Source of the DNA: Mesodorylaimus sp. YZB2_4
Taxonomy: Eukaryota > Nematoda > Enoplea > Dorylaimida > Dorylaimidae
Assembly (NCBI GenBank): GCA_030248295.1
Contig: JASANH010000626.1
Span: 186,001 to 250,000, forward strand
Reading direction: 5' to 3'
DNA length: 64,000 bases
The position numbers were made by a program, and so were the translations under genes. Below the pieces are notes generated by a model, which made no database searches, had not been told where the DNA came from, and saw only the letters and a program-made list of their open reading frames with translations. Shown here piece after piece: positions 19,576-50,688 of the stretch. Positions within the stretch are counted from its first letter, which is position 1, and each line of letters begins with the position of its first letter.

Positions 19576-21559
19576 TCAGTTGTGTCCCCCATTCTCGTCC
19601 ACATGCACTGGTTCGACCATTGTTTTCCTTAAAATTTTATAAGACATACGACGTAAGCTATTACGGAACTCCCTGCACTTGGCCATTAACACGAAAACGT
19701 CAGCCGATGCCCCGATCGATTGTAAAACAGATGCGTATACGACCACCCGAGGCTGATATCGCCCTTGATCGATGAAGGCGGACAGACTGATGGCCATCTC
19801 GGGCACTACACCAGTGGCCAGATACATGATTATCATGACCCCGATCATAGGCAGGAGGGCCAGTTGCTGTCTTAAGAACACGTCCTCTGTGTGATTCAGT
19901 GTGCTCACCGTCTTGCCACTATCCGGTCTCGATGTCCCGCTTTGAATTTGATTGAGGGGGAAAGCATTGGCGGCTTTCCTAGCTTTTACAATGATCACGA
20001 TGGCTGCGTAGACACCAACGGAGACGCAACAAAAAAACAAGTTATGGCAGGTATAATAAATGAAGAAATATATATCCAGGGCCAAGAAGGAATTGTAACA
20101 TGGAATTGGGTCTGCCATGTAAGGACCTGTTGACGCAGCAGCGACCGTGTTAGCAACGGCGACTAAAATCGTGAACGATAATGAGTACAAGGCGCAGCGA
20201 CGACCAACCCTAAAAATTGGTGATTTTGAAAATATAGCCTTGCTCCTCTTTTGTTTTTCTGGTGTTATTTTGGGACGGAAATAACTGTTATTGCAAAGAT
20301 TCTGTTTGAGCCATGTATGCGACAATGACGAGCCCCTTGAACGTCTCTAATTAGCTGAACTAGGATTGTTTTGTGTGTTGGGTTGACGTCAGGGGGCAAA
20401 AAGCAAATTCAAAAAAAGACGCGTAACGACTCGGCTCGGCAGGGTACCTTCTGATATCTTATACCCGAAGACCCTGTCGCTTAATATAAGGGCAAGAGCA
20501 CCCTTTCATGAATTCTGATAAGAAATATCTGTAAAGCGCAACACTACACGAACAGCAATTACGAGCCAAACCACAGCATGCTCCCTGCAGTACAATAACA
20601 GTATCAAAAGCAGTCCCTGCTTGTTCGCACAGTATGTATTTTCGAGGGCAGACCTTTCGGCAGAAAATGCCCCACATCAGGCGGGAATAACGTGTTTATG
20701 CGCTAACGCTTACACTACCCGTCTGTGCCCGTGAGTCAAATACATAACTAGAGGTGAGTGTGGCAGTGAAAAAGGTAGGCCATGTCGATTAAAGTAATTG
20801 GGTAGCCAAGTCACGTCAGCACCGTGTAATATGGAATAACTCATCACGGGAAGAGGGTCCCACTGGTGTGAAATGACCGCGTAATGAAATGAACGTTGCA
20901 CTTATTTCGGGGCGGAACTTTCCTAGAAAGCGAGTCCTATCGTAAATATAGAAGTTCACAACACTAGCTGCTCCGTGAAAAACATCTAACGAAAAATAGA
21001 TATTAGATCAGATTATTAAAACAAAAATATACTTTTTAGCTTTAAATCTTTTGTTGCCTCATTCTAGCTTGATACGAGTGCGTATAACCCTTCACCCTTT
21101 ACACAGTCCTGAGCACCAAGTGTCTTTAAACAGCGTCCCTTACCTTTTGTAATGCATGGGCCAAGCAATGCTAATCAATCGATCGACGCCTACCATGCAG
21201 GTCAAGACGGCGCTCGGTGCCATGGTCATAGTTTTTGTGACTCCCAAAATAAAACACACCAACCTTGTCCGAGTAGTGCCCACGATTTTTGCTCCAGCCG
21301 CCGCGAATCCTGCGCCATCAGTCAGAAATCCGAATGCCATCAAGCACGCATTGACCAAGTGGGCGCTAATCAACAAAAAACACGGCGTATGTAGTTTGCG
21401 ATTGGATAGTACAGCCGCAAATCCGACCACATTGGCCACGATTCCAACAATACCAAAAAACAAGCAGCAACCACCAGCGAAAATTAAGTCGGCTGCTTCA
21501 CCGACGACGGGCTGCTCGACGGTTTCATTAAAATGAGTGATGTTTTTGAAGATATCCAT
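19576..21559 (-). CDS. Srsx-like seven-transmembrane receptor (GPCR)
   Basis: Predicted plasma-membrane receptor of about 349 residues in two exons, 21144-21559 and 19576-20209, joined as AAA-AG|G-GTT across a 934-base intron. The N-terminus has two N-glycosylation sequons (NIT, NET). TM1 is in GIVGIVANVVGFAAVLSN, and the TM3 end carries VDRLISIAWPMHYKR in place of the DRY motif. Exon 2 supplies the later membrane helices, including QQLALLPMIGVMIIMYLATG, and the C-tail motif EFRNSLRRM. This layout and the Gln-Gln-Leu-Ala-Leu-Leu-Pro block recur in the receptor gene at 35110-36303, so the two are paralogs. The family resembles nematode Srsx/FMRFamide-like rhodopsin-type receptors; the ligand is unknown. 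Confidence 0.8.
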
Positions 21560-22504
21560 GAGACTTTTTCTTGGCCTCCGTTCGCAGTAGGTGCTTGGAA
21601 AGTTCTACCTAGACTGGCTGTTCCAGTTGGCTACTCGGACTGCCTCACGCAAGTGTTATTCTTTAGCCTTTATAAGCTCGGAGTTCTTTTGTGGCTGTCA
21701 TTAGGACGATTCCCGCGGGGGACAATGTTACGAAAGTGGTCATCATCGAAAAGCCTACAGGGCGTGTCAACAGCCTTGTAAGGTATCGTATTAGCGAGTA
21801 CGAACTATTGTGTTTCAACTTCATAACTACTTACAAGTAAAATGCCTATAACGAAGGCACCTTCGTCAGTCAGCACTTGTCCAGTGCCCTCCCGGGGAAG
21901 GCATTCATAAAATACTTTACGAACTTTAGTTCACAAAAATATCAGCAGTCCCTTTTTTCATGCTCACAATTGTTGAAACTGTCTTCGGTAAAGACTAAAA
22001 AACAGCTAAATTGCACGGCTATAGGCTAGAAGGATGCAAACTCTACGATCCCCGTTAGCGCGTTGGCGTTGTTTGTTCGTGGTTGTGAAATACGAGTCGT
22101 GTAAGCATGACTATTTATAGCAGACAGGATCTGAGAGCTCGGCAAGGTTGCTTATCCATATATGAGGCCCTGCGAAGAAATCAAAAGGATTATTTAGAGA
22201 AATTATTCTCACAATCAGAAGTCTAGGCGCTCTGCAAATACCATACTGGTAGGTCATTCAGCAAAAGTAGAAACAGTGTAGTAAGGATAACAAATGCGCC
22301 ATGACACATTTTCCATCAAAACACACCACCTTGGTAGATCCATGCACATCACTACCTCACAAGCTATGTCAGTGTAAAGTATGCAGATCAGTGTAACGTA
22401 AGCCAAGTGGTCGCCCACAGACCCAGAGAGCGGCCAGTAGTCCAGTTTGAACGGGTGCCATTGTCATCGCCGCTCTGTTTCTCATAGCCCTGCTCAGCAG
22501 TCCG
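21560..22504. other. intergenic, nothing specific seen
   Basis: Divergent interval between the minus-strand receptor and the plus-strand membrane-protein trio, so it should contain both promoters. No clear TATA element, repeat or RNA gene is recognised. Confidence 0.4.
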
Positions 22505-23005
22505 ATGGCCCCGCTGGCGACTGTGGTATGGGCGACAGAAGAGGGGGAGGAGGGGTTGTGGTGGGCGATATCGATATTGATGGCTTTGATCGGCGTTTCG
22601 GGAGTCGTCTTCCTGTGCGCGTGTGGAAAGAAGGAAAAAGAAGAGCCGCCCCCAGCAGCTCCGAAGGATGGCTCGAAAAGGGAATCGGTCAAGTCGGTAC
22701 AAGATGTAAGTGAGGACCCTTTCACAACTGACCGCCAAAGAATGACTTGCTCCGCAGGTGACGAGTAAATCCTCTTCCTTATCGGGCAAGATATCAAAGG
22801 TTTCCGAGCTGCCGGTGGTGCATTCTTTCAAGTAAGTCTGGGGGGCATTGTTGCGCAGGATGGCTACTCGAAGCGTGTTTTTTCCAGTCTCAAGAGCGCT
22901 CCCAAAAGGGCTCCCGGCGAAGTCTCTCAGAGGTCTCAAAGGTCGCAGAAATCGCAAAGGTCGCAGAAACCAGGATCGCTGAAACTGGCCAAAAGTAGCA
23001 AATAG
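22505..23005 (+). CDS. tandem single-pass membrane protein, copy A
   Basis: Three exons, 22505-22705, 22758-22831 and 22888-23005, with intron phases 0 and 2, encode 130 residues. The protein starts MAPLATVVWATEEG (short, acidic, no signal peptide) and has one membrane helix (WWAISILMALIGVSGVVFL) followed at once by CACGKKEKEE, so the positive-inside rule puts the long tail in the cytosol. Exon 2 encodes a Ser-rich piece ending ELPVVHSF. Exon 3 is Lys/Arg/Ser/Gln-rich with a repeating Ser-Gln-Arg/Lys unit and ends LAKSSK. Exon count, phases, the start MAPL, the Cys/Lys patch and the LPxVHxF motif are shared with the next two genes. No known family is recognised. Stop to the next ATG is only 198 bases. 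Confidence 0.7.
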
Positions 23006-23203
23006 AACGATTTGATCCGAGAGTGATAGTCGTCAGGTCTGTGATTGAACGAGTGCGCGCCACTGTGTTTTGCTTGTGCGGTTATTGCTTGTCTGCCTCT
23101 GTCTGCGTGGTGTGTAAAGAATGAACAGCACATTAGCGGACAGCCCAGCGCAGCAGTGTACTTGTTGTCGGGCGATGCAGTGAGGTCGACGAGTCTGCTC
23201 GGG

Positions 23204-24038
23204 ATGGCCCCCTTGCGCGTCATGGAAGGAATCGATGTCGGAGCTATGTGGTACGGAGTGTCGGCGTTGGTGGCCTGCATTGCCGTCTCGTTCGTCGCCC
23301 TTCTGTGTGGATGCTGCGGCAAAAAAAGCAAAAATGGCCAAGATGTTACGGTAGACCAGAACTCGAAAAAAGAATTGGTCAAAACGGTAAGTCGCAGATC
23401 GATGTCTCCCATTCCACCTGCAGTTACATTCAGATGTTGATTCAGGCGAAGGGAGCAGTGTCGGGGGTTTCGATTCGCGAGCGCAGCTTGGTAGGCGGCA
23501 AAAGCGTGAATTCAAGTGGGTCGTCGTCTGTGTCGGAAAGGGCGTCGAAACCCCATCCAGAGTTGCCTACTGTGCATGAATTCAAGTAGAGTCCTTCGTG
23601 TTGGTCAATCTGGTCAACGTAAGGCCAATCTGTCATTTTAGAGTGAGAAAAGGCCTTGGTGCAGTGACTGTAAAATCTCTGAAATCCCCGAGGTCGAAGA
23701 AATCGGCGAAATCGAAGAAAGGATCTGGAGCATCATCGAGCTCATCAAAAAGGCCATCGGGGAGCGGAGGGCCAGAGACTTCCTCTGGTGCATCACAGAA
23801 AACGCCAAGCAAATCGCCTACTACTTCGATCAGATCGGTCAGTCCGCTTGATGGGACATCGTTGAAGAAAGTGACGGCATCGCGAGAATCTCCGAAAACT
23901 GCAAGTGTATCAGCAAAGGGGTCGACTGTATCGAAGACTGCATCAGCAGAAGATTCTCGGGAAGCTGATGGCAAAAAATCTCCAGACCAGCGAGAAGTGC
24001 TCTCGCCTTCGATTAAAACATGCAGGATTTTGGATTAA
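23204..24038 (+). CDS. tandem single-pass membrane protein, copy B
   Basis: Three exons, 23204-23386, 23446-23585 and 23642-24038, phases 0 and 2, 239 residues. It starts MAPLRVMEGIDVG, has one helix (WYGVSALVACIAVSFVALL) and the patch CGCCGKKSKN. Exon 2 ends SVSERASKPHPELPTVHEF; exon 3 is a long Ser/Lys/Thr-rich, low-complexity tail that ends with a Lys-Thr-Cys-Arg tetrad (IKTCRILD). An ATG-less frame stays open for 53 codons upstream of 23204, but the MAPL start is preferred because both neighbours use it. The tail is about 100 residues longer than in copy A. Many Ser-Pro and Lys-Ser steps suggest phosphorylation, which is inference only. Confidence 0.7.
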
Positions 24039-24911
24039 GAAGACAAGATTCGCACCGCGATCACTGCCTTGCCTTGTTTTGTTATTCTGTGGGCGTCTCA
24101 TTTTTGTACTGGGCTGTACTGGTCGATGTATCACTTACTGAAGTACATGTTGACCCAAACTGTGGGGGAAATTCTCCCTCTACTAGTCATTGCAATCGGT
24201 ACTACAGTTGAGCCCGTATATCCGCCTAGTGTCTCCGCACCCATTGTTACGCGAAAAATACCAGTATCCAAATGTACGAAAATCACAAGGTTTCCATGCC
24301 TGTTCTACCATGTAAAGTACTCGCCATCCGCCGATATCGCACTCCAAAGCGAGGGACACATAAAATCAACATCCTGATCCGTTTACACCATTTACATGGC
24401 CAGAAGTTAGCTGGCTACTGATATTTTTATACAGTACCTAGGGAATCGAACCAACCCAAAATGCGTCAGCCCTTCTCTGGTCAAACTGTTAGTAACATCA
24501 AGTAGCTACTGTACGATGCCTGTGCTGAAGATAGTTCTCACGATTCTACAAAACTACCGTACTTCACCTTACAAACGAGGTCTATATAGTTCTGGGAAGA
24601 TTTTTTCGGCGGCATTCGGGCACCGTTTGACGGATTTCGATTAAATTTGACCCCAGCGTGAGGGACATGCTACCCGAGAATCCTACGATCGGATTTCGCG
24701 ATAATTTGATCGAAGATAATTTGATCGTAGAATATGAGTCCGCAAGTTTGACCAGGGAAGGGCTTAGTACCTTTACAGTGCGAGCTTGATGATGGACTTT
24801 GCGCGTGAAGCGTAAAGTACAGTCAGTAGGTACGAAGCATCATTTGGCAGTGTTGCGCGGCGTGGCTGATTGTGTAGCCTTGGTGGCGACTGGGTGGTCG
24901 AAGATTGTGAC

Positions 24912-25727
24912 ATGGCTCCATTGGGCGCGCAATCGTCGGTCGCAGAAACCAATATCCTTCATGCGTGGCCTGATGTATCGACATTGGTAACGGTGAGCAC
25001 GGTTTCAATAGTCGTCCTTTTGTGCGGGTGCTGTGCTAAGAAGAAAGACGCCACGCAAGCTTTGACAGGTCCCAAAGAAGATCAGAAAAAGAATCAAGCC
25101 CCTGGAGATAAAACGGTATGTGCAGCAAAGTTGTGCATGCGAAAACGACGTGCGCAAGAACGACATGGTTTTTTTCAGCCGAAAGGGGAAATGCCATCAA
25201 TCTCAGTTCGAGGAGGCCAAAGTGTAACCTCGTCGTCCGTATCGGGGAAAAATCTTCCAGATTTGCCGACTGTGCACGCGTTTCAGTAAGTTGTTCTTTG
25301 TAATTTCTTCTGGCCTATAAAAATTGGGATGTCGGTCAAATTTGACCGATTAGTGGCAGAGACAAAAGACGATTAAGTATTGTAAGAACATATGCTTTTC
25401 AGCTTGAAGAAAAAAATTGGAGAGAAAGTTCAACAATCGCTAAGGCCCTTGACTGCAAAATCATCCGATGCATCTCAGAAACAGATTAGCCCATCGCAAA
25501 AAGAACCCAGCCAGTCTCAGAAGATACCCTCGGCCAGGACAGCACGCGAGCCGACACAGAAACCTGGAGTCTCTCAAAAGCCATCAATTGCTTCGCAAAA
25601 ACAAGGCGATGGTACTCAAAAAACTGAAGGTGCCTCTCTCAAGACGGCAATCGCACCTTCAACAACTCAAAAAAGCGGTGCACCGGAAACGTCGAATTTT
25701 ATGAAAACGTGCAAGAGCTCGAAGTAA
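24912..25727 (+). CDS. tandem single-pass membrane protein, copy C
   Basis: Three exons, 24912-25115, 25179-25285 and 25403-25727, phases 0 and 2, 211 residues. It starts MAPLGAQSSVAETN, has one helix (VSTLVTVSTVSIVVLL), then CGCCAKKKDA. Exon 2 ends SVSGKNLPDLPTVHAF; exon 3 is rich in Ser-Gln-Lys units (SQKQISPSQKEPSQSQK) and ends MKTCKSSK, which combines the Lys-Thr-Cys of copy B with the Lys-Ser-Ser-Lys end of copy A. The gene sits 873 bases after copy B. The same architecture with diverged sequence shows old tandem duplication with constraint concentrated in the membrane-proximal patch and the LPTVHxF motif. Confidence 0.7.
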
Positions 25728-26211
25728 ACGAGGCTTCTTCAAGTATCTTACTGTAGGTTGTGATGCAGTGACCTTTGGTGTCTGAACAGCCTAAAATCTT
25801 TTTGACTAAACATGTACTCCTGGCTAAATATCAAAACTGATCCTCAAACCTGTTGCATTGTACACAGTCCAGTGCCAACCCGTCTGTAAGATCTTCAACG
25901 AGGTGTCATAGAGGGACACTTTGCGTGGGAACTCATTTCTCTTTCCTGGAGAGAGGCTGGTTTCTGAGCACAGACTTGTAGGGTGGCTTTGGATCGATCG
26001 ACACTGGTTGTTAGGTGCGCACCTTCCCCCAAGACAACTCTCCTACTACACTACATAGTACGCTTCGCAGCCACTATACGAGTATACATCTGAAAAATAA
26101 AGCGCTTGCCTATTTTTGCGGGCCTTTATGACGTGAAATTCTAGTCGGAACTTCAAAACGCCATTTATGTCAGATTCCTAACATTTTTGAAGTTTTGTCT
26201 CTATTGCCATA
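25728..26211. other. intergenic, nothing seen
   Basis: Interval between the membrane-protein trio and the first transporter; presumably 3' untranslated region of copy C and promoter of the transporter. Confidence 0.4.
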
Positions 26212-28222
26212 ATGACGCAAAGATCAGCAGTGCCCATTGATCGTGGCTGGGCGTGGGTAATAGTGACAGCTGCATTCATGAATTTGTTGTTCCTAATTGG
26301 AATCAGCAAATGTTTTGGAATATTGTTTGCCGAATTGATCGAACTGTACAATGGCACTGCCTCGGAGACTTCGACCATGTTGGCTTTGGCAGCTGGACTG
26401 AGCCTGTTTACTGGTACGATTTTGCTGTTGTTGCATTCCCATTGGTCTGTAGTACCTGACCTGATTAGCCACACACACAGTGCGAAATCTATCCTGTCCG
26501 ATTTACCTTTTAGCCCCTTTGGTAACAACAATCAGCGACCTCTACACCTGTCGCCTAGTGTCCATGATTGGAGGCCTTATTTGCTGTCTCGGATTCTTAG
26601 TGCCTGCATTTTGCACATCGTTGGAGCAAGTAATTATCTCTTTTGGCATTCTGACAGGTACAGTATGCGATATAATTTCTGATTGATTTCGTCTAAAAAT
26701 CATTTGACTTGAGGTTTGGGCTATGGCGTCTGCCTAACACCGTCAGCAATCATCGTAGGCCGATATTTTGAGCATCATCGCTCACTGGCCAACGGCCTGA
26801 TGTTCTCTGGTAGTGGAGTTGGTGGCATGCTGATTCCCTTAGTGCTTAATTATATCATCGAACAGTTTGGCCTGCACGGTGCCTTTTTAATTCTGGCTGG
26901 TTTCGCTCTCCAAACTGTGGTCTTTTCGGCTTTATACAGACCCTTGGAATACTGGACAAGGACGGGAAAACGTGTATCTTCAGATTCAGAGGAAGCATTA
27001 GAGGCAGGAAACGAGCAAGTGCAAGTGGACGAAGGGAAGACTAGCGGTGATAAGCTATCCGAAATTGGAAAATCCGATGCGTCCATCATGAATCGACGAC
27101 GTTTATCATCTTCAGGAATAGTTTACAAGAACGATAGCTCAAATCTTCGACCACACTCATCCGTATCGCGCCTATCCGACCGAGGTCTTTTAAGCCCTTC
27201 TATCTCCAGATTAAACGATGACAGAATGACAGATGTATCTAAAATGACATTATACTATAGTGCCCTTAGCATAGCCACGTGGATGCCGGGCCCCGACGGT
27301 CATCCAGAAACTTCACACTGTGGCCATGAAGGTGAAACTGAATTAAGCGATCGAAGAAGAGATCAGTCAACCAGAGGATGCTGGAGACTTTTCCGAAGGC
27401 TGTGTTTTATGCGAGGGGCCGGTGGTTCTGCGCTACCTCTTTTTGACTTTCAGCTTCTACGAAATTGGCGATTTGTACTTTTTGTCACCTGCAGCATGTT
27501 CATGCTCGTGTCGGCTTGCATCGGAATGATCATTCCTCCGCACTGTAACCAACTAGGATTGACCAAGATTGAAGTGGCAGTCTTGCTTTCTGTTCAGGGT
27601 AAGTCGGTCAGGATGGACCCGGGTAATCTACATAATTTATCGTAGCGTATTTCTAAATTAAATCAGGCGAAGTCCTCTCTCATTGTCTCTCCTTCAGGTG
27701 GAGCGGATACAGCTGGTCGACTTTTGGTGGGCTTTATTGGCGATCGATCATTCATCAAATCCAGACGGCATGTCATGGTTGGCGCGTGCTGCCTCATCGC
27801 TACAGTCGCTACATGCGTTAGTATTTTTCTCACAACTTTTTGGAGTCTTTTGATCTACCTAGTCTTCTGCTCATTGGCTATTGGTGCCTTTACTCCCATG
27901 ATTCCCGTCGTTCTGGTAAGTCTGCATGTCTAAGCAATAGTCCGACGAACCTGCATTTCCTCGACACCTTCAGGTTGACCTCGTCGGCGTCGATAATCTC
28001 AGCCGAGCTTGGGGAATAACTGTGTTCGTGGAAGGATTTTCAGTGACCTTGAGCCCTTTGATTATTGGTGCCTTACGAGATTTGACTCTGTCGTACACGA
28101 GTGGTCTCATATTCCTTGATGTGTGCTTCGCCTTTGCCACTTTTTGTATATTCGTCGTTGTGGCTTTGGATTCCAGGCACCCTAAGGCTGTGACAACCTT
28201 TCATGGGACTGCGCCCGAATAA
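26212..28222 (+). CDS. monocarboxylate transporter-like protein (SLC16/MCT), copy 1
   Basis: Predicted 12-helix major facilitator in the plasma membrane, related to proton-coupled monocarboxylate carriers. Five exons, 26212-26413, 26514-26657, 26714-27598, 27698-27915 and 27974-28222, phases 1, 1, 1 and 0, total 565 residues. The N-terminus VPIDRGWAWVIV matches the MCT signature before and in helix 1. Helices 4-5 carry GYGVCLTPSAIIVGRYFEHH and RSLANGLMFSGSGVGG, the conserved MCT block. A long charged cytoplasmic loop (about residues 185-320) separates the two six-helix halves, and the second half contains GGADTAGRLLVGFIGDRS. Substrate cannot be told from sequence: MCT-type carriers include lactate, thyroid hormone and orphan carriers. 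It is the tandem paralog of the gene at 28780-30987. Confidence 0.88.
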
Positions 28223-28779
28223 ACGTCTTACTTCAATGAGTCAGGGCTGGAATAGTTTGTTATCCATTGAAAACCACTTTCTTTGTACTCTAGAGCACGA
28301 ACCCAGCTTTTCCTTGTTTGCACCGTTCCTATTTCTTCTCAGGAATGTTTTATACATGCGCTTTTCAGTGCTAACTCGGTCAAGCGTAGGCACTTGCTCG
28401 TACAGAATGCTTACCCGTGAAGCCTCCGCCCATCGCTCGTTCTAGATTCCTTTATCGCAAACAAGCCTTGCACCAGGTTCTTTCACATTGAATGGGATCT
28501 GGTCCTGAGCATTTACATAGTTGTTTGCCATGTGATCTATACAGCATAACAGGTGACGGGGAGGCCGTTCACGTGAACGTATCGATCTGCACGTACGTGT
28601 AAAACCCAAGGCTGCCTAGTGCGTTGTCGCTGAGGAAGCCAGTTTCCAGAGCGAGTTCCCACGACGAGTCGAAAAGTGAGGGTTCTCCGAGTGGCATGCA
28701 TCCGTGCCGTGTTTCATCACCCCGTTTCGATGCACCCAATTGAAAATTGTTTATAAACTAATGTTTGTTATCTGAATTT
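28223..28779. promoter_or_regulatory. intergenic region with palindromic E-box-like sites
   Basis: Between the two transporters lies a 14-base perfect palindrome, CGTTCACGTGAACG, at 28566-28579, centred on a CACGTG E-box. A second perfect palindrome, CACGTACGTG, follows at 28590-28599. They are about 200 bases upstream of the second transporter's ATG. CACGTG is the classic site of bHLH-zip factors; its use here is inference. Confidence 0.4.
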
Positions 28780-30987
28780 ATGGCTCTGCACTCTGCTTCA
28801 GTTCCAGTTGACCGAGGGTGGGCGTGGGTCATCGTGGCGGCTGCCTTTATGAATGCAGCTATTCTGATAGGCATGTTCAAATGCTTTGGAATGTTCTTCG
28901 CTGAAATGTTGGAAATGTATCATAAATCAGCCTCGGGCACATCGACCATGCTGGCCTTGTCTGGGGGACTAAGTTTATTTCTTGGTAAGATGTGTTTTTT
29001 TGCGCAGGCACTATGTTCTCTCTTGATACCAAAGTCGTAATTACAGGTCCGTTGGTAATGGTGTTCAGTGACATGTACACGTGCAGAGTGATCTCAATGA
29101 TCGGCGGTGTGTTCTGCTGTCTCGGCTTCCTTGTGCCAGCTTACTGCACCAGTGCAGAGCAGATAATCGTCACATTTGGAATTCTGACTGGTGAGTCACA
29201 AATCGTACCTGATCCTGTCTGGGCTTGGATAGCGTATGCTTCTAGGAATCGGCTATGGCATGTGCCTTATGCCGGGCACAGTAATCGTGGGTCGATATTT
29301 CGAACGCCATAGATCACTGGCCAACGGAATCCTGTTTTCTGGAGGTGGTGTTGGGGGCATTATCGTGCCCTTCTTTCTCAACTATATCATCGAAGCCTTC
29401 GGTTTTCGCAGTGCATTAGTGATTTTGGCTGGCGTTGCATTGCAAGTGGTTGTGTTCGCAAGCTTCTATCGCCCATTAGTTTATTGGCTGAAGCTCGAGC
29501 GGACGTTGCCTGTCGAAGAGCCAGGGGAAGAAGACGTCGAAGAAGAATTCAATGAAAAGGAGATTCCTGTTATGGAACGCTTGTATTCCGTGCCAGAGGA
29601 CAGGTGCCTGGAAAATAGTTTTGCGGGGAGTCCGCCCGTAATTCGCAACGGACAGCGCGAAAGTCTTCATTTTCGCACGTCATTACCCGTTTTGTGCAAT
29701 AGCGAAAAAGCTAGCAAACGTCGTGTAACCGCTTTACGAAACGCTGATTTTGGAAGCAAAGAAATCGGGTCGAATGCATCGTTATACTTTAGTACATTGG
29801 ATATTGCCTCATGGTGGCCTTCGCCGGATCAGACCGCATCCCCTTCTGATCACTGCGGGCGTGAAACAATAATTAATGGCTCTGTCTCAGCACCCGCCCC
29901 CGGCTCGCCTGTAAAGGCGTGTACTGATAAGAATAAGTACAGAGCCCTCTTTAGACGCATGTGTTACGTGAAAAGTGCGGAGGGCGGTGGTGAGCTGCCG
30001 CTATTAGATTTCTCCTTAATGAAGGAAACACGATTTCTGCTTTTCGTCACCAGTGCAGCCTTCTTCATCCCAGTCATGTACATTGGAATGATCATCCCGC
30101 CCCATTGTCTAGAACTGGGCATGACAAAGACAGAAGTGGCTGTCTTACTCTCCATACAAGGTAAGTATCACACTCCAAATATACACGCCCCTTCTCGTTT
30201 GGCCTCTCTAAATATTTACACATTTTTGTATTCAGGCGGAGCAGATACGGCTGGCCGACTATTGGCTGGCTTTTTGGGCGACAGGTCGTTCGTGAAATCA
30301 AAAAGAAAAATAGTGGCATCTGCTTGCTTCATTGTCTGCTCGGTGACCACGTTTGCTGCCGTGCTGTTGAATACGTTTTGGGGACAAGCCGCTTATTTGA
30401 TCGTCAGTTCGGTAGCCAGAGGAGTCTACGTGGCCATGATGCCCGTTGTACTGGTGAGTTGGAGAGGCCACCTGAGCCTGGCACAACAAAGACTAATATT
30501 TATGCAGGAGTACATGGGCAAGGATGCACCACGATTGTGGCTCCCCTTGAAAGGGAATCTGCCAACCAGACCCGCACCTGGGAACATCCCCTGGGAAGAC
30601 TTAAAAGCTAGCATGTTTGCAGGTTACACACGTGCAGGACTGTATGGGAGGGCAGATACCTTCCACTGTAGCAGTGCAAACTATGTATAGTGTGTACGCT
30701 CTGGCTTCGTCGGAGGGCAGAGCGAGTATCTTCTCCTAGCTCCTACCGCCTGCGGAACCGTCTGTCCATTTCAGGTAGACTTGGTTGGAGTGGAAAATTT
30801 CAGCAGAGCTTTGGGTCTGCACGCTTTCGTGCAAGCATTTGCAGTCACACTGAGTCCAGTGGTCATTGGCGCACTGCGTGATTGGACACTGACCTACACG
30901 AGCGGATACATGTTCATCGCATCTTGTTTTGCAGTGTCTGCAGTGTGTGTTATTATGGTTATAGCTGTTGACAGAAAGTCACAATAG
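28780..30987 (+). CDS. monocarboxylate transporter-like protein (SLC16/MCT), copy 2
   Basis: Five exons, 28780-28984, 29047-29190, 29246-30160, 30236-30453 and 30775-30987, with the same phases as copy 1 (1, 1, 1, 0), give 564 residues. Exons 2 and 4 have exactly the same lengths as in copy 1 (144 and 218 bases). The protein begins MALHSASVPVDRGWAWVIVA and keeps the GYGMCLMPGTVIVGRYFERH block and GGADTAGRLLAGFLGDRS. The central cytoplasmic loop is the most diverged part. Intron 4 is 321 bases, much longer than in copy 1 (58 bases). The exon 3-containing frame stays open for 231 bases past the exon 4 donor, but the conserved exon 5 (VDLVGVENFSRALG) shows the intron is real. Substrate unknown. 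Confidence 0.88.
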
Positions 30988-32556: not shown

Positions 32557-35109
32557 TGTCAGTTCCTGCTCTAACGTAGCCCAGTCGTTGGTAGTCAGAA
32601 AAACGTGTCCTGACCTCAAAGGAGGTAGTCGACCAGAAAAGCAGAAGGCACTACCAACAAATCGAAGTCATCGACTGCCCCGGTCGAGCATTCTTGTGTG
32701 GCCGAGCGAGAAGAGTCGGTGAGGAGGGGTGGTCCTAAGTTCTGTTATCCGGGTTGTCTAGCAACGCAGTCCTTTCACTAGCAACCAATGCGCGTCGACA
32801 GTCGGCATCCTCTAGAATTCAGGTAAAGGAAGATATCACGAAGGCGGGGTTTGTCTTTCCAGAACGAGCTTGTCTTTCCTTACCAAGCGCGAGGGTCTGC
32901 TGTCGGCTCTCACGCTCGGTTTTCAAGCCTCGGCGAGAAAACATGCAGCTCGCAGGGAAAAATTGATCAGAAAAGAGTAAATATCAATCAAAAAAACTCA
33001 TGATTTAAAGTGGTTTTTATTGTAATGAATGGCTAATCAACTCGCTCACCTCTTATTATGGACTTGATTGGAGTGTTTTCGGATTCTTGATTAGATCCTT
33101 TTATGGCTGCCCGGTTACCATCTCACATTCGACTTCGCAAACTCACGTGCTTAAGTTTTTATTTGCTTTCTCTTCGATGAGAGATAGAATGGCACAATAT
33201 CAAATAAAACTAAGGCGACCAGTGTGCTGGAAGTTGATCTTTCCAGATCTAACACCAAGGGTTCGACTACAAACGCTGCACTCTGCCCTATCGTTAGGGA
33301 CACGTGGTAAAGCAAAGTAAGATCGCAGATGACCATCCAGAGTCCTGACAGCTACTGATCTTTCCAGAGAACTGAACCTGAACCACTGAACCATGTAAGC
33401 TCACTCATGCTATAGCTGGCTGTGTTCACGCCGAGGCTTGAAAAGCCGTGTCTCACTAGTTATAATTCGAAGATGGCTGTGTTGCGCCATACATACATGG
33501 CATTCATCCAGTTAACTTTGATACTATGAGATGTGCAGATCATGGCGGGGCGCTGCAATCACTAGCGCGTCACCAAGTAATTTGTACCGCTGGAACTCTG
33601 TGTACTGCACTTCGCGTGACGACAACGCGGGAAGCGTGTACTGTAATCTAGAAAGCACCTCAGGCTGGCTAGTCGCAGAAAACTAACGATAAGCGCTAAC
33701 CCGATGGTGTCTGCCTCTCTGAAGATAATGTACAGCGCACCCAACGAAGGCAATACATGCACTGGCCAAGTCCGGTGTATTAGACAGCCAAATACACAAC
33801 TTCCCCACAGGCCAAACACGCCTATAAAACCTGCCTGAGAGATACCAGCATGGGACATACCAATGCCAGGCACTTTCCTCTAAGTCATATCCACGTAAAA
33901 GTTCGTTTTAAAAAATTATCGAAGCAGGTGCAATAACTTCCTGTTTTGACTCTCCCTAGGTAAGTGCTGCTTTTCTTTTTGTTCTTGAAAAGCAGCACTT
34001 AACACGCTGACATTAGAAAGCTTCTTGGAGCCATTATAGAATAGCATAGATCATATCCGTTGGGTATGTGTCAGGCTAGGAGACAATAGCAGCCTTCGTC
34101 TGATTCAGTGTGAGCATGCTCAGGACTCCCGGTTCTGGTTATTGTCTATTGGTCCAATTGTAAATACTGTAGGTACTATTGAAGATGTCGCCTACTCAAG
34201 AAGCTGCTCATTAGGCTGTTTCTGATGTCGTGCTCGCATTAGTGCTGCGTGCCAGGCGACAGCACCGAAGATCGTGTGTTCAGTTTTTCCACCCTTATGG
34301 AGAGAATGAATCAATCAAAAATCGATATCAGTCTGTATCCCGACCAATAAACGAAACAGCAAGTTCAATTATCATATCATAATATAAAACTGTACGAACC
34401 GAAAGAACTTGTGGAGTCCCTTGGTGATATTCATTGTGAGTCCCAACTGGCTTTGTTTAAAATGCTGTCCATCTTGATCAAGCACTAGTGTCTCATTCTT
34501 GTCAGCGACTGTGGACGTTTGCGCTCAGCAGGCTCTTCTTTTCTTCACCTGACCATCGTTTCCTGCATTATCCTTTACCGATATAGTAATGGATCCTTTG
34601 TGCCAAATATCAAACGATAGCGATTCTGAGAATCGGTCATTGAAAGAATGCAAGTAAGTTGGACTGGGGAGAAGCAGCGCAATATTTGAATATTTTTTAA
34701 AATTCGAAAATAAAAGACGCGAAAATGACAAAGAATTGTATTAATATTTTGTCGATCCAAAGGCTTTCTGTTACACAGTGTAGGATGCTATAATACAGGA
34801 ACACTGAAAAGATACTATGTGATAAGGATAGTCTTGTCAACGAGGCCGTTGCCGGCCCCAGGCATTTGCTCTCCTGTAAATCCTTATCTATACCCGCTTC
34901 ATTTATAGCCCAGACACAGCCCGGGAAGAACAGCCTTTTTGAGAAATAAAAGTACCTAATCGGTACATTACATTTTGGTTGTGTTTTTTTGTATTTCCGC
35001 CCACAATTTCCTCCTTTATCGTTTTCAATGGCATCACAAGTAAAAGTGAAAACTATTCGGGCTTATAAGCAGTATATAGCTCTGATAATTGGTATTTGCG
35101 TACGGGAAC
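32557..35109. other. intergenic, one perfect hairpin, no gene recognised
   Basis: No supported coding frame. The only clear structure is the inverted repeat at 33961-34001, listed separately. The left end should hold the promoter of the calcium sensor gene; the right end has a TATA-like stretch (about 35062-35078) upstream of the receptor. Confidence 0.4.
33961..34001. repeat. perfect 15-base inverted repeat with 11-base loop
   Basis: The arms taagtgctgcttttc (33961-33975) and gaaaagcagcactta (33987-34001) are exact reverse complements around an 11-base T-rich loop. It is too short for a typical pre-microRNA and carries no target-site duplication I can see, so it may be a transcription-related hairpin, a tiny foldback element or chance. 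Confidence 0.75.
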
Positions 35110-36303
35110 ATGCTGTATCTGGATCAGTTCAGAATTCTTAGCCCCTTAGTTGTATCCCCGGGTAGGGCTCCTTTGAAATCTGATATGCTCGGGAGTAAAA
35201 AGTGCAAGTACAGTAGATGGGCAGCCTGTTTGCTAACTGTAAAATCCTCGCTTACAACACTATTCAATCTTCATGAAAGAAAAATTTCTCAATTATCGGT
35301 GTTGTCACCAGTCACATTTGACCCTTTTTCCAATTCTAGCATCTCGTCTTCAACTGACGTCACTCACGCCCGCATCCAACCTCTGTTTCCGACCTTCTTG
35401 GAGTTGATGGTCTCGAATATCTACGTCTTGGTGGCTTCTGTGCTGGCAATTTCTGCCAATATTACCAGTATTATTATCATACGAAAGAACAAGAATTTGC
35501 ACAGCGCATGCTTCGTCCTGATATGCCTGCAAAGTGTTATCGTTTGCCAAATGTCTCTCGGCTTCCTCACGAACGCTCTGCTTGAACTGTCCAATCAGCA
35601 CTTGATGCCTCGTCTTCAATGCACCTTGATTTACTTGCCATCTTTCACTGCAGCCACCCCACTCTCGGCCTTGCTCCCTTGTTCGATAGCCATCGACAGA
35701 TTGGCCGCCCTCGCAGTTTCCATCAGATATCAAAGAATCTCGAGATACCTCTTGCGAGTTGTCCTGGGCACATGCTTGTTCCTTATGTGCACCAATTCCT
35801 TAATTAGTGTTGCCACCACCCCCGGCTCGTTCCAAGAGAAGATCGTTTGTATCAGCGCATTTACAACTTGGCACCCAGTCTTCGCCACCTATTACTTATC
35901 GTTGGCCCTCGTGTTCTTCATTCTTTCTATCATCTTTTATTCGAGCATGAAAAGCCTGATAAAACGCGAACGTAATAAGATCCGCTCGATACCCAAGGAA
36001 TCGGATGAACTGTCGCCGCTAGAGCTACTCTATTCGCAACAGTTGGCTCTGTTGCCCCTGATTGAAAGAATGCTGACCGCCTACATATTCTTGGCCGTCA
36101 TCCCTCACTTTGCTATCACCATAGCTCCCTACGTGGACAGTGGCCGGCACCAAGCACGCATTATCCTGCATGCGACAACACTCAAGGTCACGTTGGGATT
36201 CGTAGATTTTATGGTCCTGGTATCCCGAAGTACAGAATTCAGAAAAACATTGCTCAGCTTCAAGTTTGGCAAGAACAACCATGTGACCAACGCGGCCTGG
36301 TGA
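35110..36303 (+). CDS. Srsx-like seven-transmembrane receptor (GPCR), second copy
   Basis: An open frame of about 397 codons from the first ATG (35110) encodes seven hydrophobic helices after an unusually long N-terminus of about 100 residues. TM1 lies in SNIYVLVASVLAISANITSI, TM3 ends in IDRLAALAVSIRYQR, and the sixth and seventh helices are around QQLALLPLIERMLTAYIFLA and the following segment. The Gln-Gln-Leu-Ala-Leu-Leu-Pro block, the Gly-Arg-x-Gln-x-Arg phrase and the EFRKTLLSF tail align with the receptor at 19576-21559, marking them as paralogs, here intronless over the membrane part. The long N-terminus includes a pyrimidine-rich AG (near 35339), so the real start may lie in another exon, or part of this N-terminus may be intronic. 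Ligand unknown. Confidence 0.75.
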   Translation: MLYLDQFRILSPLVVSPGRAPLKSDMLGSKKCKYSRWAACLLTVKSSLTTLFNLHERKISQLSVLSPVTFDPFSNSSISSSTDVTHARIQPLFPTFLELMVSNIYVLVASVLAISANITSIIIIRKNKNLHSACFVLICLQSVIVCQMSLGFLTNALLELSNQHLMPRLQCTLIYLPSFTAATPLSALLPCSIAIDRLAALAVSIRYQRISRYLLRVVLGTCLFLMCTNSLISVATTPGSFQEKIVCISAFTTWHPVFATYYLSLALVFFILSIIFYSSMKSLIKRERNKIRSIPKESDELSPLELLYSQQLALLPLIERMLTAYIFLAVIPHFAITIAPYVDSGRHQARIILHATTLKVTLGFVDFMVLVSRSTEFRKTLLSFKFGKNNHVTNAAW

Positions 36304-41716: not shown

Positions 41717-43385
41717 AAAGGATCAAGGATACCATTTCAGGCGCAGTGAAAACCAAGAGCGACCAAAACCATGCTGTTACAGTAGCTGTGAGTCAATCTA
41801 CATAGTGCCTACCCTTCCGCCAAAACAGTATGGCGCCTCCTCAACACACTAATTCCCATGTCCCTGAAACTTCTTGATTGCACGGTCAGCGTGACCTCTC
41901 AAAACATTGTCATCAGTCCCACCGGACGATCCTTCGATTCACTTTCGTTGGCCTGATGAGTCGGATCATTTTTTATCAGCTCGCTCTATTATCTTATCAA
42001 TCCTGATTTTAATTGCCCATTAAGCACATCTGCCACCCACGGCTGTCATATGCCTCATCCCGTTGCCCTTGTCCTCTCACACTCGACTCCGAGTAATGCC
42101 TGTCACAAATGAACTAAGCATAGTCTCCTGCCTCATCGCCCTTCTCAATAAATTCATTAGTGGAGCCTACAGTAGCCTCTGTGGATGCAAAAATAGCAGA
42201 TCGGCACACCTCAGAGCATGACAGCCAGTCAAAGCCCTACTCGGCCATCCCAGCACTGAGTAATCTCTAACGGCATCGAACTTTGCTAAGAGAACTGCCA
42301 ATTACGCCCAAGTCAATTTCGGCTCGTCCCTGCAGCCAGATAGCACCCGCAGGCGCGAGCCATCTTTGCCTTCCTGTCCTGACGACTCGGCATGCATTAG
42401 TGGTACGCGCCACACAAATCTACAGTACTCCACTCCCTGCGAGCCGAGTCCCCAAATCCAAGCACGGACATTACACTTTTACAAAACCAGCGTTATTGTA
42501 AGATCAAATAGGAAACAGGCAGCGTATTAATAATATACAGCGATAGTACATCAGTCAAGTTTTTGTATCCAACACATAGTTCAGAGCTTAATAGGCGGAA
42601 ATCATAACAGAAAGCACAACTGACACTCGCATCCTTTGCAAAAATAAGCTGCTTTTTCACAGCAAAAAACATTACATTACGAAAGCGCAGGAATTTTTCA
42701 CCTCTCGTCAGAACATAGCTTTTACATGTCCCGAACGAAAAAACCAGCCACCTACTGCTCAAATAACCGTATGCTTTGGTCCATAAAGCAGAAATTAAAC
42801 CAAATACGAGCCTTTATCCTGTTTTCTCAAAAATCTTTTACCTTGCACAATGCTGGCACATCAAAAAACATTAAAAATTAAAAAACTGTTCTTGAAAAGT
42901 CTTTTGCAGAGGAAGCTGAGGAAAACCTATCGACATAGTGCGGAAAGGGAATGGTTCACCTTAAGGGGAAAACCATTCCTCAGAGAAAACCTACGCACTC
43001 CATCCGAATTTCGTAAAGTGTTCCAAGCTCGCGACAACGAGAGTCCCCACAATGCCTTCTACTTATCCTGGCAGCCGATCGAATGGCGTACGAGCAATTG
43101 ATCCTTGCACCTTGCAAACACTCGCTACACACCACTTTACACTCTCTTTGATTCCAAAATTGCCACTGCCGAAAACTCGTCATTCGTTTCCCGTAGGTCA
43201 AAGAAGCATGCTTTGACGACGGCTTTTGTTATTGGCTTGTCCATTTTGATTATATTGACTGTTGTGACTAACACCACCGCCATGATGGTTGTGACGATGA
43301 TGGTGGTGGTGGTGGTTGTGGTAATGATGGCGCTGACCAGGATCACGACTCAAATGAATGCCAGGAAGGTTGAAGATCGAATCAG

Positions 43386-46042
<2,657 letters not shown>

Positions 46043-49000
46043 GAAATGGCCTTCCTCCCACAATCACGATCCCCGATATCGATCAGTGCAGCCAGACCAG
46101 AACGACAAACTAAAATCCCACCAACATAATACGAGATATCACCCTGACGGCGAGATCCAGACCACGATAAACCCACAAACGCTGATGACGGACCCGAACT
46201 AGTCCGCTCCTGAAACAATACGGCCACATATTAAGCGCCAATTTACGCCCACGCGCGCGCTAGCTAGTCACTTAGGTAGGCCGGCCAAGATCATAGTCTT
46301 TGCATGGAAATCAACTTTGCGACAGGCCGATGCCTCAGACGGATTTACGGGCGCCATTCAGATTTCACTGAGGACTCATTCCGTCCGCGTCCTATCTTTA
46401 CAACTTTAGTCCCTACTACGACGACAGCGGGACCGTGTTCAGCCTCCCTCTTTCACTCGGCTGACGAGGCGGAAGCAGCTGCGGCCCTACTTCGTCCATG
46501 CCAGCCAGAACCCCAAGCCCGGAGCAAGCAAAGAACGAAGGATGACGTCCGTTTTAATCAATACCTATTACACCTCCGGCGCGCATGAACCGAAGAATGA
46601 GAAAGAGGCTAGAAAACGAACGTTCCAGAAGCCGTCCATAGCGGCCACCCCAGACGTACGTGCACTGTGTGATTTAGCGTTTAGGCCCTTGGGGACAGCT
46701 CCCTCCCCGCCCACGGTCCTCGCGCTCTCCCGCCAGCCAGCCATATGCGGCAGTCATTAGCGATCAATACGAAACGCCGCGACGCCTTTCTCAACTCCTT
46801 CCGTTCGTACAGCGGCTGCCGACCATACGAAATTATCTTGGGCATAGTTGGAGGGGCGGACGCCATCGATCGCCTCCCACCGCCAGTCGCCAATATATTC
46901 CCAGTTCATAAAATGGATCACCCGCACGGTTTCCGTGTTTACAGCCTTTTTCGCTAGGCTTCTTCAAAATAGCTGAATCCGATTACCAGCCTTCTCAAGG
47001 ATTCACCACTGCTCGAACCATAAGCGGCACTCAAATGCACCTGAGACCTCTCCCCTGCATTCCTCGCACATCAGCTCATCTGGAAACAACTCTAAACAAC
47101 TTCTATCCAACAAAATTCGCCCCCCCCCCCCCCCCAATAAACTCACGCAACCTTCATTCAACGATACACGAACCATCCGAACTGTGCCGATACGCTGAGC
47201 AAACTAACTGTTCCCCTTTCCATCACTCATCATCAAATTCAAAACCAACACTTATCCAAATAACAACGCTACTGCCAATATAAATCCATGAAATTTTCCA
47301 TTTTTACACACTAAACTCATCCATCAACGTGACGCGCACTCCTCGTCTCCTCGCGCTCATCAACCCGGCAGCTGGCCGGCTTCGAACACACACGACACCA
47401 ACACCTGCGACGAAAAACCCTTCGTTTATAAAATTTACGACCACACGTCGCAAACGGTCTCGATCAGTTTAGTGACTGATGCAAATGCACAAACCAGCCT
47501 AACCTTGCCAACCGCACCGCAGAACTGCGCTATAAACAACTTAGATCTCCAACAACACCCTCAACCCCTGCGCCTCAATCGCACCACTGACACTGCCTGC
47601 ACTGGCCAACTGCCCGCCCTGCCTACCCTCTGATTCACCGCACCACCGCTTCTAATCTCCGCCGACGCCTTATCGCCATCAACCGACCGAGACCTTATTT
47701 TGGCGCCACTAGGCCATCGGAAACGCATTACCCACCCGTCTGGCCCTCGAATCTGGCACGTCGAAATATGCCATCAAGCTCACCCTAGCCACGTATATGC
47801 AACACAGCTACTAATCGTCACCGGCAACCATATAGTCCTTTTTCTTTTTCTCTAAATCGTTTCCGCTTAATGGCGATAATCACGATGCTAATACATTAGA
47901 AACGCTCGACCGACTGGCCATTACGCAGCTGGCATGCCTCAGCGGCATATCTCACCAGACAGGCATAATTATGGACCCTCCTCGGAAAAAAGAGACTGCA
48001 CTGAGAACGAGATCTCCCCTCATCCTACCCGATCCAATCCCTCAGCTCCCAGCCAAGCACATCGTCTAGATCTTTGTATTTTCCTTCAAGAAAAGGCCAA
48101 CCGAAAAGCAAACTTTGGATCGACAAAAGGATGGGCATTCATTATTGCTCGGCTACTTCTAGGCTCCTGAGGAAAACGTCCGGCCGTCAATCAACAGCAA
48201 ATAAGGACCAGTGCATCCTGCGCACCCTCTCAGTCCTTGGCCTCTTTTCGAAACGGTTTTTTTCACCAGTCCCTTCAATCAAAAGCACACCATATCCAGG
48301 CATTCTTTCAAATTGTCTCGCCGCCCACCACAAAAACCGGCTTTTATTTAAGAAAAGGAAACCTAATTTAACTTTTTCCTTCTTCAATCCATCGATCCCT
48401 TCGTTTCACCTCGCAAAAAATCTATCCTCGAATTCGATCCGCAAGCGAGCAGCATGGCAACTAGTCAACGTCACCCAGCTGAAAAAACGCACACTGCCCA
48501 AGAGAAGCGGACAATGCTCATTCAACAACAACCAAATTCGAAATTCCGACTTGTCCGATTTTCAGATCACCACTATCCATCACCTCACGAAAAAAACAAC
48601 AAATAGTGTCGCGTGCTCGATTCCACTGGCAAACAGTCGCCTCGGTCATTGCACTGGAGAAAGGCGACTAACGTTACGCATTCGCAAGCAGATGATCGCC
48701 TAGCCTTTACCCCCTGGTCGTCTCCAACAGCTGTCAACACTACAAACATAGGACGAACAAGAAGACCGCCTCGCCTTTTACCCCGACTAGACGGACGGGG
48801 ACCGAAATTTCCAAGTGTAATACGGCCAATTTTTATACGCGACCATCTTCGTACGCGTGGCCAACATCTGCCCATAACGGTAGTCCATGCGCCCGCCCTG
48901 ATTACGCCCGTTTGCATTAGGCTGTATTTCAATATAGTCAGAATACCATATACAATATTGCATACACCCTATCACTTCCATCCAACTTCGCTCAAACCCG

Positions 49001-49276
49001 CACTCCTCGGATCATCATTATTTGACGAGTCCAACATGGCGACGGGTAGTCCGATCCAAATATTTATGGAATGCCATCCACGTCATCTCAAGCAAATCCT
49101 ATCCATCCGTCTTCCAAAACTTCCAAGCCCATCCAACATTCAAGCTGGACGAACCTGTTCCTCCACCATCACTCCGTGTTCAATCGTCATCAACCATTTT
49201 TCACCGAACCCACCCCGCCAACGCCAACCCAACTTTAGGAACACATGCACCGAAAGAAAAAACAAACTCGACTTAC
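46043..49276. other. interval inside the PCTAIRE kinase locus, no other gene seen
   Basis: Probably a long intron of the long form plus the promoter of the short form. A minus-strand acceptor (GGGATTTTAG) near 46112 could join a 5' untranslated exon to the short form's first coding exon. The plus strand is G-poor and carries C16 at 47120-47135. Plus-strand open frames reflect scarcity of TAG and TGA and are not called. Confidence 0.45.
47120..47135. repeat. C16 homopolymer tract
   Basis: Sixteen consecutive C residues on the plus strand, inside the presumed kinase intron. Confidence 0.9.
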
Positions 49277-50192
49277 CTTTTGTCGAATACGATCGACCAT
49301 TAATCTTTACAATCGTCGCACCGGCGGCGCCGTGTCTCAGTTGATACCCGTTGGTTGCGATCTTGTAAGATTGACGTTGCTTATTCCGCATGACGACGGA
49401 GGTCGGCTGTAAATCGTCATTGTACCCTAAATAAGATACGTGTACTGTACGCACATCACGTCGCTCAGTGTAGCCGACATATCCATCACTCTTGCGACAG
49501 GTAAACATGACGCACGTGTTCCCTATGAACTGCCAGGGAGCAATGTCACTCGTCAAGACAAGATAACTCCTGCAACTAGCATTTCGGCAGTGAATACAGG
49601 GCGTCGTCGATCTCCGACTTAGGCACGCCATGGGCAATCTGTCCCACAATTCTTCACTCAAACCCCCAACTTACCATTCATATCGGCATACATCGAAGCA
49701 GACAATGAATTCTCTTCCAATCTCTCGGCCAAGTCAGCCATCGATTCCTCGGCCACGGACGCCACTGACGGCGGCGACTGCAACGTAATCGACGATCGCG
49801 ATCGACGAGCCGCATTGCCTTTGAGCTTATGGTGGTGTTTATGGGCACGATGAGCTATATCTCCGTTATGACCAACCCCATCACCATCTTCCTCTTCGTC
49901 CTCGTCGCGATGATTCTGGCCCGACTGATGATGACCGTTGGTCATAATCAATGACCCAAATAAATGCCCAGCCGACGCCACTGGACGCAACGCCTGCGAT
50001 AATCTCCGCTTGATCCGCTTCATCATCCATCCGCCCACCCAATTCGGATGCGTCGATGCAGCACTGCTCGACAGAGCGACTGAATTTGTACTGCACACGT
50101 CCGCATTACTGCTCCGATTGCTAACACTGGCCGCGCCCAATGCCACGGCACTGTTTGCACGACGACGAGACGAATTCACGTAGTTTGCTTGC
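49277..50192 (-). CDS. pct-1: alternative upstream N-terminal exons of the PCTAIRE kinase
   Basis: Two minus-strand exons, 49675-50192 and 49277-49426, join in phase 1. The last ends in phase 1 (AAA-G) and is phase-compatible with the shared kinase exon that starts at 45515. The first carries WMMKRIKRRLSQALRP, matching the conserved N-terminal MKKIKRQLS of vertebrate PCTAIRE kinases, followed by an Asp/Glu-rich and a His/Lys-rich stretch. The second reads YNDDLQPTSVVMRNKQRQSY and continues to the donor. An upstream open segment ending at a donor at 50420 (phase 2) joins to 50192 in phase and may be a further 5' exon with the true start. The 3.8 kb gap to the shared exon would be an intron that contains the alternative first exon. 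Confidence 0.55.
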
Positions 50193-50419
50193 CTAAAGTT
50201 GAAAAAGCACTGTTGCCAAGAACACAAGACAAACAGGTTACTTTGTAAGTTCAACGACAAGCCCCACCCATCCCTACCGTCCCGACCACCTAGCCTACTC
50301 AGACTTTGCCCAACACCCTTCCATAATTGCACACCCGCCTCATCATTACTCTTAGCATATGGACACCTCATTTTTTATTCCCATCAGTCTCTGCCCTACA
50401 AATGACCAGCTAAACTTAC

Positions 50420-50680
50420 CCGTGCTCGCAATTCATAATCTCGTCGGTCGACTTTCCAATCTCCAACGACGAGGCAACGGCGAGATGTTGTTGGCTAGTA
50501 GTCGCTATCATTGGCTCCACGCGACGCTGATCTTTGCTCCTGGCACCAAACGCTATCTTAATTTCCGGCTCGTCGCTACCGCCAGCGACTACGGATTTTT
50601 TCACAACACTGCCCGTGTGATCACACACGGCAATCTTGCACGACGCCGTGATGCTCTCGTTAACGATCCGATGACGCCCC
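50420..50680 (-). other. possible 5' exon of the long PCTAIRE kinase form
   Basis: The minus strand is open in a frame that includes GGSDEPEIKIAFGARSKDQR and ends ...MNCEHG at a GTAAGT donor in phase 2, compatible with the exon starting at 50192. Its upstream limit and start codon are not found: the frame meets a stop near 50690. An internal Met lies in VEPMIATTSQ. Confidence 0.35.
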
Positions 50681-50688
50681 CAAAAAAA

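Follow-up and report, generated by a model that had tools for sequence, protein, structure and literature searches.

The window analysed here, 64,000 nucleotides (C1:186001-250000) of a 145-Mb nematode genome, carries three consecutive genes, g1, g2 and g3, at 22505-25727 (Table 1). In models drawn from sequence alone, each has three exons, introns that start with GT and end with AG in phases 0 then 2, a MAPL start and a single helix, and the encoded proteins are 130, 239 and 211 residues long, respectively. The original prediction, which had described a tandem trio of single-pass membrane proteins of this design, held on these points, as it did for the LC(A/G)C(C)-Lys patch and the end of exon 2 in [E/D]LPxVHxF, both found in all three genes. 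The tails also have roughly the lengths first announced, exon 3 encoding about 38 to 131 residues. The LPxVHxF motif continues over intron 2 as F[N/K/H][L/V]. The related C-termini that had been proposed were borne out only in part: KTC[R/K] is common to g2, g3 and a copy on another contig (C45), and is absent from g1.

Table 1. Features of the locus and of the further trio-type copies (positions are those of the window unless a contig is named).
Feature	Position	Strand	Description
ACTTTACACTG promoter element before g1	22370..22380 (C1:208370-208380)	-	
Conversion-like tract	22500..23300		g1, spacer, most of g2 exon 1; 97-100% identity per 100 bases to inverted copy C1:264.3-266.1k
g1 exon 1	22505..22705	+	MAPL start, helix, LCACGKK; ends in phase 0
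g1 exon 2	22758..22831	+	ends ELPVVHSF, phase 2
g1 exon 3	22888..23005	+	Ser/Lys/Gln-rich tail and stop
CTTTACAC promoter element before g2	23112..23119	-	
g2 exon 1	23204..23386	+	MAPL, helix, LCGCCGKK
g2 exon 2	23446..23585	+	ends ELPTVHEF
g2 exon 3	23642..24038	+	Ser/Lys-rich tail and stop
Second element before g3, CTTTACA	24771-24777	+	
CTTTACG promoter element before g3	24811..24817	-	
g3 exon 1	24912..25115	+	MAPL, helix, LCGCCAKKK
g3 exon 2	25179..25285	+	ends DLPTVHAF
g3 exon 3	25403..25727	+	Lys/Ser/Gln-rich tail and stop
g1', g2'	C1:264.3-266.1k		inverted pair, outside the window
C98a/b	C98, 259k and 300k		near-identical inverted pair
Single trio-type copy	C45		

Further copies were found by tblastn with g2 and with a DNA pattern for the motif plus the donor site. 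Five additional genes with the three-exon, phase 0/2 design were recovered, which brings the trio type to eight genes. The DNA pattern occurs at 6 places in the genome, all in trio-type genes, and its reversed control at none. All eight genes carry [E/D]LP[T/V]V[H/R]xF, the His being changed to Arg in the C45 copy. By a composition count, the eight tails contain 15-23% Ser and 12-18% Lys, and tyrosine was found in none of them. The Lys patch, which had been described as part of the shared design, is lost in the near copy g2' (CGCCGSS).

A comparison of dN/dS between copies, suggested at the outset as a check, gave whole-coding values of 0.16 to 0.40 in five diverged pairs: 0.40 for g2/g2' and 0.32 for g1/C98a, together with 0.35 for g2/C45, 0.25 for g2/g3 and 0.16 for g2'/C45, these last three being rough because dS was saturated (above 1.5). 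With exon 1 only, ratios of 0.85 (g2/g2') and 0.57 (g1/C98a) were obtained. The g1/g1' pair differs by one coding change and the C98a/b pair by three, and both pairs may be assembly doubles. Both the reading frames and the comparative scarcity of amino-acid changes support real protein genes.

Contrary to the first description, which treated the trio on its own, the sequences place it as one branch within a superfamily that numbers dozens of genes in this nematode; the members of this superfamily are predicted to have in common an M-A-P start, an acidic N-terminus, one helix and a CxC(C) cluster. Searches by tblastn with relatives from C7, C1056 and C4 gave 32, 51 and 33 matches, respectively. 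In the tblastn searches for the family, links inside a branch reached E-values of 1e-28 to 7e-56, and those between branches stood at about 1e-3 to 0.3. Across branches, the C4 query reached g3 (E 0.0012) and g2' (E 0.0045), and g2 reached the C7 relative (E 0.033). These cross-branch links sit in the hydrophobic helix, where convergence is possible. The frames recovered are alike: M-A-P, a short N-terminus, the helix, [L/M/V/A]C[A/G/S]C[C/G] and a charged tail. Because the links to the trio branch are modest, kinship rests on the start, the Cys cluster, the charge pattern and the promoter taken together.

By hand-picking among tblastn matches, 70 superfamily places were counted on 41 contigs, part of them unread: matches whose reading indicated another protein were dropped, as were weak ones left unread, and some unread copy-like ones were kept. 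Starts were read for 55, near-copies included, from which 42 rows without near-copies were chosen for alignment. Within this hand-picked, non-redundant set, 39 of the 42 members have Ala2 and 40 have Pro3. The first Cys of the cluster, located at residue 32-58, is present in all 42, which bears out the constraint on the membrane-proximal cysteines that had been proposed. The second Cys is kept in at least 90% of the rows, and mean column identity is 17%. Starts were also read upstream, in frame, for 27 newly fetched matches (some of them near-copies of each other) whose first aligned query residue was number 8 or higher, a set that left out seven similar matches on C14, C30, C64, C93, C285, C393 and C932. 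Seventeen had MAP, three MPP and one MAA, and the six without such a start are probably chance helix matches. In the window, 12 of 2193 ATGs are followed by Ala-Pro codons, those of the trio included.

LPxVHxF, first described as a motif of the trio, turned out to be branch-specific, as other branches close the same region with other short motifs, namely [E/Q]A[D/N]PLRLxSF, LQLMSKM and LDEL[D/E]. These motifs mostly adjoin a donor-like GT, with a phase that varies between branches; in the [E/Q]A[D/N]PLRLxSF branch the motif is altered in one member, and the donor is missing from L063. The branch motifs may be docking sites, so that the partner-binding site suggested at the outset, like the lipid-modified anchor, is a putative one.

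The net charge on the N-terminal side of the helix is negative in 40 of the 42 members, zero in two and positive in none, and 31 have no Lys or Arg at all on that side. Just past the Cys cluster, a stretch of ten residues carries a net positive charge in 26 members, no net charge in 6 and a negative one in 10. Read with the positive-inside rule, this charge pattern favours an N-out/C-in topology for the superfamily. AlphaFold2, run with the g2 exon-1 product and 11 relatives, returned one helix, at residues 12-44, with a mean pLDDT of 64.7 and a pTM of 0.33.

Word counts were then made in 40 upstream regions of 95-200 bp. Redundancy among these was reduced solely on ungapped identity, which left both g2 and the closely similar g2' in the set; an exact 16-mer is common to 3 of the 780 pairs of regions. 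CTTTACA was present in 26 of the 40 regions, against 0.9 expected from block shuffles, and CTTTAC[A/G] in 29, including one in each of g1, g2 and g3, and was absent from 11. It stood on the plus strand only in 19 regions, on the minus strand only in 9 and on both in 1, and all 30 sites lay 66-141 bp before the ATG. In 400-bp regions, a site at 60-140 bp was found for 18 of 21 members and for 0 of 10 GPCR and collagen control loci, whose starts were guessed as the most upstream in-frame ATG; the same test on windows further upstream was positive in 7 of 357. The original prediction had missed this common element, as well as the superfamily-wide M-A-P start.

Sperm or testis promoter motifs have been reported in C. 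elegans and Ascaris, namely the C. elegans sperm motifs GATAA and ACGTG (excerpt of PMC2861633) and the motif TATGCARA (excerpt of PMC3916258); all are short and lie upstream of sperm/testis genes, and their letters differ from those of the family element. They were rejected as the shared signal, since no enrichment was seen in the 40 upstream regions: GATAA (9 regions) and ACGTG (13) stood at shuffle level (8.5 and 12.2), and TATGCARA was found in 1. The nematode piRNA promoter motif, CTGTTTCA, was likewise discarded, with 0 occurrences in 40. A CTTTACAC sperm element was not found among the open-access papers listed on sperm promoters.

A strict form of the element, ACTTTACACTB, is over-represented 5.8 fold genome-wide: it occurs 2689 times, compared to 466 times for the reversed pattern. 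In a site list covering C1, C2 and C3 up to 1.04 Mb, it lies 137-169 bp upstream of 7 of 10 MSP-domain matches (two adjoining pieces on C3 being counted as one), and upstream of 0 of 13 collagens and 0 of 4 GPCRs. The Fisher value for this comparison, 1.4e-4, overstates independence, because six of the seven positive matches are on C1 with near-equal scores (37.4-37.8 bits) and are probably close copies. Among the 11 superfamily genes on C1-C3, g1 is the only one preceded by the strict form, the family using the looser core. Two of 8 phosphatase matches had the strict form within 450 bp (at 268 and 416 bp; chance about 0.0015), a limit that was widened after the list was seen, and 1 of 8 had it within the 350 bp used for the other sets. 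Nematode metallophosphatases include sperm-related members, according to the available part of PMC8480184. The sequence ACTTTACACTGCGY has 81 sites in the genome and its reverse none; by inspection, two of these precede family members on C93 and one an MSP match on C100, and some are arranged in tandem in small contigs.

Family genes also tend to lie in the neighbourhood of MSP matches. Counting one place per 60 kb, 17 of 59 family places were within 100 kb of an MSP match, compared to 10 of 97 collagens and 13 of 116 GPCRs (one-sided Fisher 0.001). Within 50 kb the numbers were 7, 8 and 8, and within 20 kb 1, 1 and 3, in the same order. A contig with an MSP match was the site of 64% of the family, 33% of the collagens and 30% of the GPCRs, on contigs of unmatched lengths. 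The association thus shows at the 100-kb scale and at the level of contigs, is almost lost at 50 kb and is absent within 20 kb. Col_cuticle_N, the N-terminal family of cuticle collagens, has 133 matches in the genome, which mark it as that of a nematode, and the GPCR control consisted of 131 places among the matches listed (of 164), second gene pieces and the lowest rows being set aside. MSP has no membrane helix, and the MSP genes (PF00635) belong to a different protein family; in this worm they nevertheless resemble our family in having the CTTTACAC element and in their 100-kb neighbourhoods. In C. elegans, spermatogenic genes, including msp genes, are clustered on chromosomes II and IV (PMC5942854, in the part accessible). 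The M-A-P start across the superfamily and the promoter element shared by its genes point to sperm.

As had been anticipated, no described family was recognised. Neither the trio nor any of the 42 members matched Pfam over the curated cut-off; for the 42 members, the best match among the 25 of 53 families listed was Prominin (E 2.8e-4, 19.6 bits for a cut-off of 34.3). A profile search of the PDB gave as best matches a designed helical repeat protein (E 6.8e-5) and residues 480-555 of calnexin (E 5.8e-4). Kinship with any of these was rejected, the matches being only of the helix or low-complexity type. The B56, calcineurin and RVxF docking motifs were considered for LPxVHxF and discarded, as by eye its variable positions across the eight copies do not fit them. 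The family was not found among the open-access papers listed on sperm promoters, palmitoylation in nematode sperm or single-pass sperm proteins.

The C. elegans protein SPE-56 (F56D5.2), the closest working model, is described in PMC13070043 as a nematode-restricted single-pass protein required for sperm membranous-organelle fusion; its C-terminal region is disordered, it has SK-rich stretches, and a palmitoylation site is predicted in it. A likeness to our family would lie in the layout, a single pass followed by a tail with the Ser and Lys contents given above. As far as that account goes, the SPE-56 helix (218-233) stands behind a long N-terminal part, whereas here the helix ends at Cys 32-58, and the SK-rich N-terminus of SPE-56 has no counterpart in the trio. 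Membership is not claimed, because its helix sits at residue 218. We take the proteins described here to be a new family of a known broad kind, the rapidly evolving sperm membrane proteins of nematodes, marked by a regulatory signature that was not expected.

The transmembrane adaptor proteins LAT, PAG and SCIMP, which are palmitoylated, consist of a short outer part, a helix, a Cys patch and a long inner tail. The trio type has the same layout, and PAG (E 0.056) and SCIMP (E 0.043) did appear as weak Pfam matches, for one member each of the 42. These values are at noise level and no match is significant; moreover, adaptor tails carry tyrosine motifs, whereas no tyrosine is present in the tails of all eight trio-type proteins. 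It is thus most improbable that we are dealing with signalling adaptors of this kind, that is, palmitoylated single-pass scaffolds recruiting SH2 proteins. A less remote proposal, which we still consider unlikely, is that the superfamily brings together unrelated small membrane proteins, in which a MAP start and a helix followed by CxCC arose by convergence, so that only the eight trio-type genes would be kin. The modest cross-branch E-values and column identity reported above speak for it. However, many of the alignments do not reach the MAP start, which was still found in 17 of the 27 matches read, and the Cys position, the charge pattern and the promoter element are common to the branches.

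Somewhat more weight, although the odds remain clearly against it, is given to a real family expressed broadly in the germline or in another tissue, with CTTTACAC being a general core-promoter element that says nothing on sperm. Controls for the element were collagens, GPCRs and distant upstream windows only, and the two phosphatase matches carrying it within 450 bp would fit such a general role. Yet the element is common before MSP matches and absent before the collagens and GPCRs tested, and the excess of about 2,200 sites in the genome looks too small to serve every gene.

The explanation that we favour, and hold to be reasonably probable, is that the genes encode small membrane proteins of a sperm type, which form a nematode superfamily and have an N-out/C-in topology, a probably S-acylated CxC(C) cluster and a sperm promoter of the CTTTACAC type. 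Each protein would start with Met-Ala-Pro and cross the membrane once, its short acidic N-terminus being outside, in an organelle lumen or at the cell surface, and the rest inside. The CxC(C) cluster would lie at the inner membrane face, where it is probably S-acylated, and the tail, probably disordered and in the trio branch rich in Ser, Lys and Gln, would carry one short branch-specific docking motif (LPxVHxF in the trio branch) tethering a partner. The CTTTACAC-type element, some 100 bp upstream of the start codon and common to MSP genes, would activate the genes in developing sperm. A phosphorylatable, positively charged tail would then be held at the membranous organelle or the plasma membrane and could bind partners belonging to the MSP skeleton or acting in membrane fusion. 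The best reading, by analogy, is that these proteins work like SPE-56 of C. elegans, kinship not being implied.

Short, fast-evolving sperm proteins are hard to place, and in nematodes sperm cells are a source of new genes (excerpt of PMC8480184). A family whose only recognisable marks are its first three residues, a helix and a Cys cluster, and which a promoter element ties to sperm, offers a sequence-only way to find such genes, and the element itself is a specific, testable sperm promoter element, distinct from those named for C. elegans and Ascaris. The family also supplies candidate substrates for sperm palmitoyl-transferases, of which SPE-10 and SPE-21 are known in C. elegans (PMC13070043, available part).

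A broader proposal can be put forward only tentatively, as we regard it as somewhat less likely to be right than wrong. The sperm programme of this nematode might be run by a promoter code, ACTTTACACT, placed some 100 bp ahead of the ATG in either orientation and different from the GATA/E-box-like motifs of C. elegans. Among the targets of this code, the largest undescribed family would be the diversified MAP-start, S-acylated sperm membrane proteins, each branch plugging its own short motif into the fusion or motility machinery, and some copies would be kept alike by conversion between inverted arms. The tract at 22500-23300 is bounded by a drop in identity to the inverted copy, to 85% in the preceding bin and to 47-68% in the bins beyond, an abrupt boundary within homologous sequence that suggests gene conversion between the inverted arms.

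The arm at window positions 22500-23300 and its inverted counterpart outside the window (C1:264.3-266.1k, C1 being the contig that holds the window) share 97-100% identity across ~0.8 kb, and are separated by ~54 kb. The edges of this identity tract are sharp and fall within homologous genes, which, judging from the sequence, suggests gene conversion between the two arms. A comparable inverted pair of trio-type genes was found on contig C98, with 97.7% identity across 2.8 kb and ~41 kb between the copies. On contigs C30, C92 and C93, several matches to the major sperm protein (MSP) domain likewise share a contig with a copy that has an equal score and points the other way, resembling the inverted pairs of the MAP-CxC family.

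Genome-wide, the strict promoter pattern ACTTTACACTB was counted ~2,200 times in excess of its reversed control. Part of this excess may be due to repeats, since some sites on C1 are paired, with a 38 bp spacing, and some in the small contigs C745, C750, C754 and C960 form close arrays.

Other genes and frames in the window
Feature	Position	Strand	Basis
7TM_GPCR_Srsx-matching frame	19576-21604	-	profile match
Two tandem transporter-like genes, adjoining trio	26191-30690	+	MFS_1 match / by eye
7TM_GPCR_Srsx-matching frame	35089-36303	+	profile match

Within the transporter-like tandem, MFS_1 is matched by 29233-30144; the first gene looks like a transporter by eye alone. The plus-strand Srsx frame is a single open frame spanning almost all of the profile. 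GC skew is strongly negative over 42001-54000 (-0.18 to -0.37 per 2 kb).
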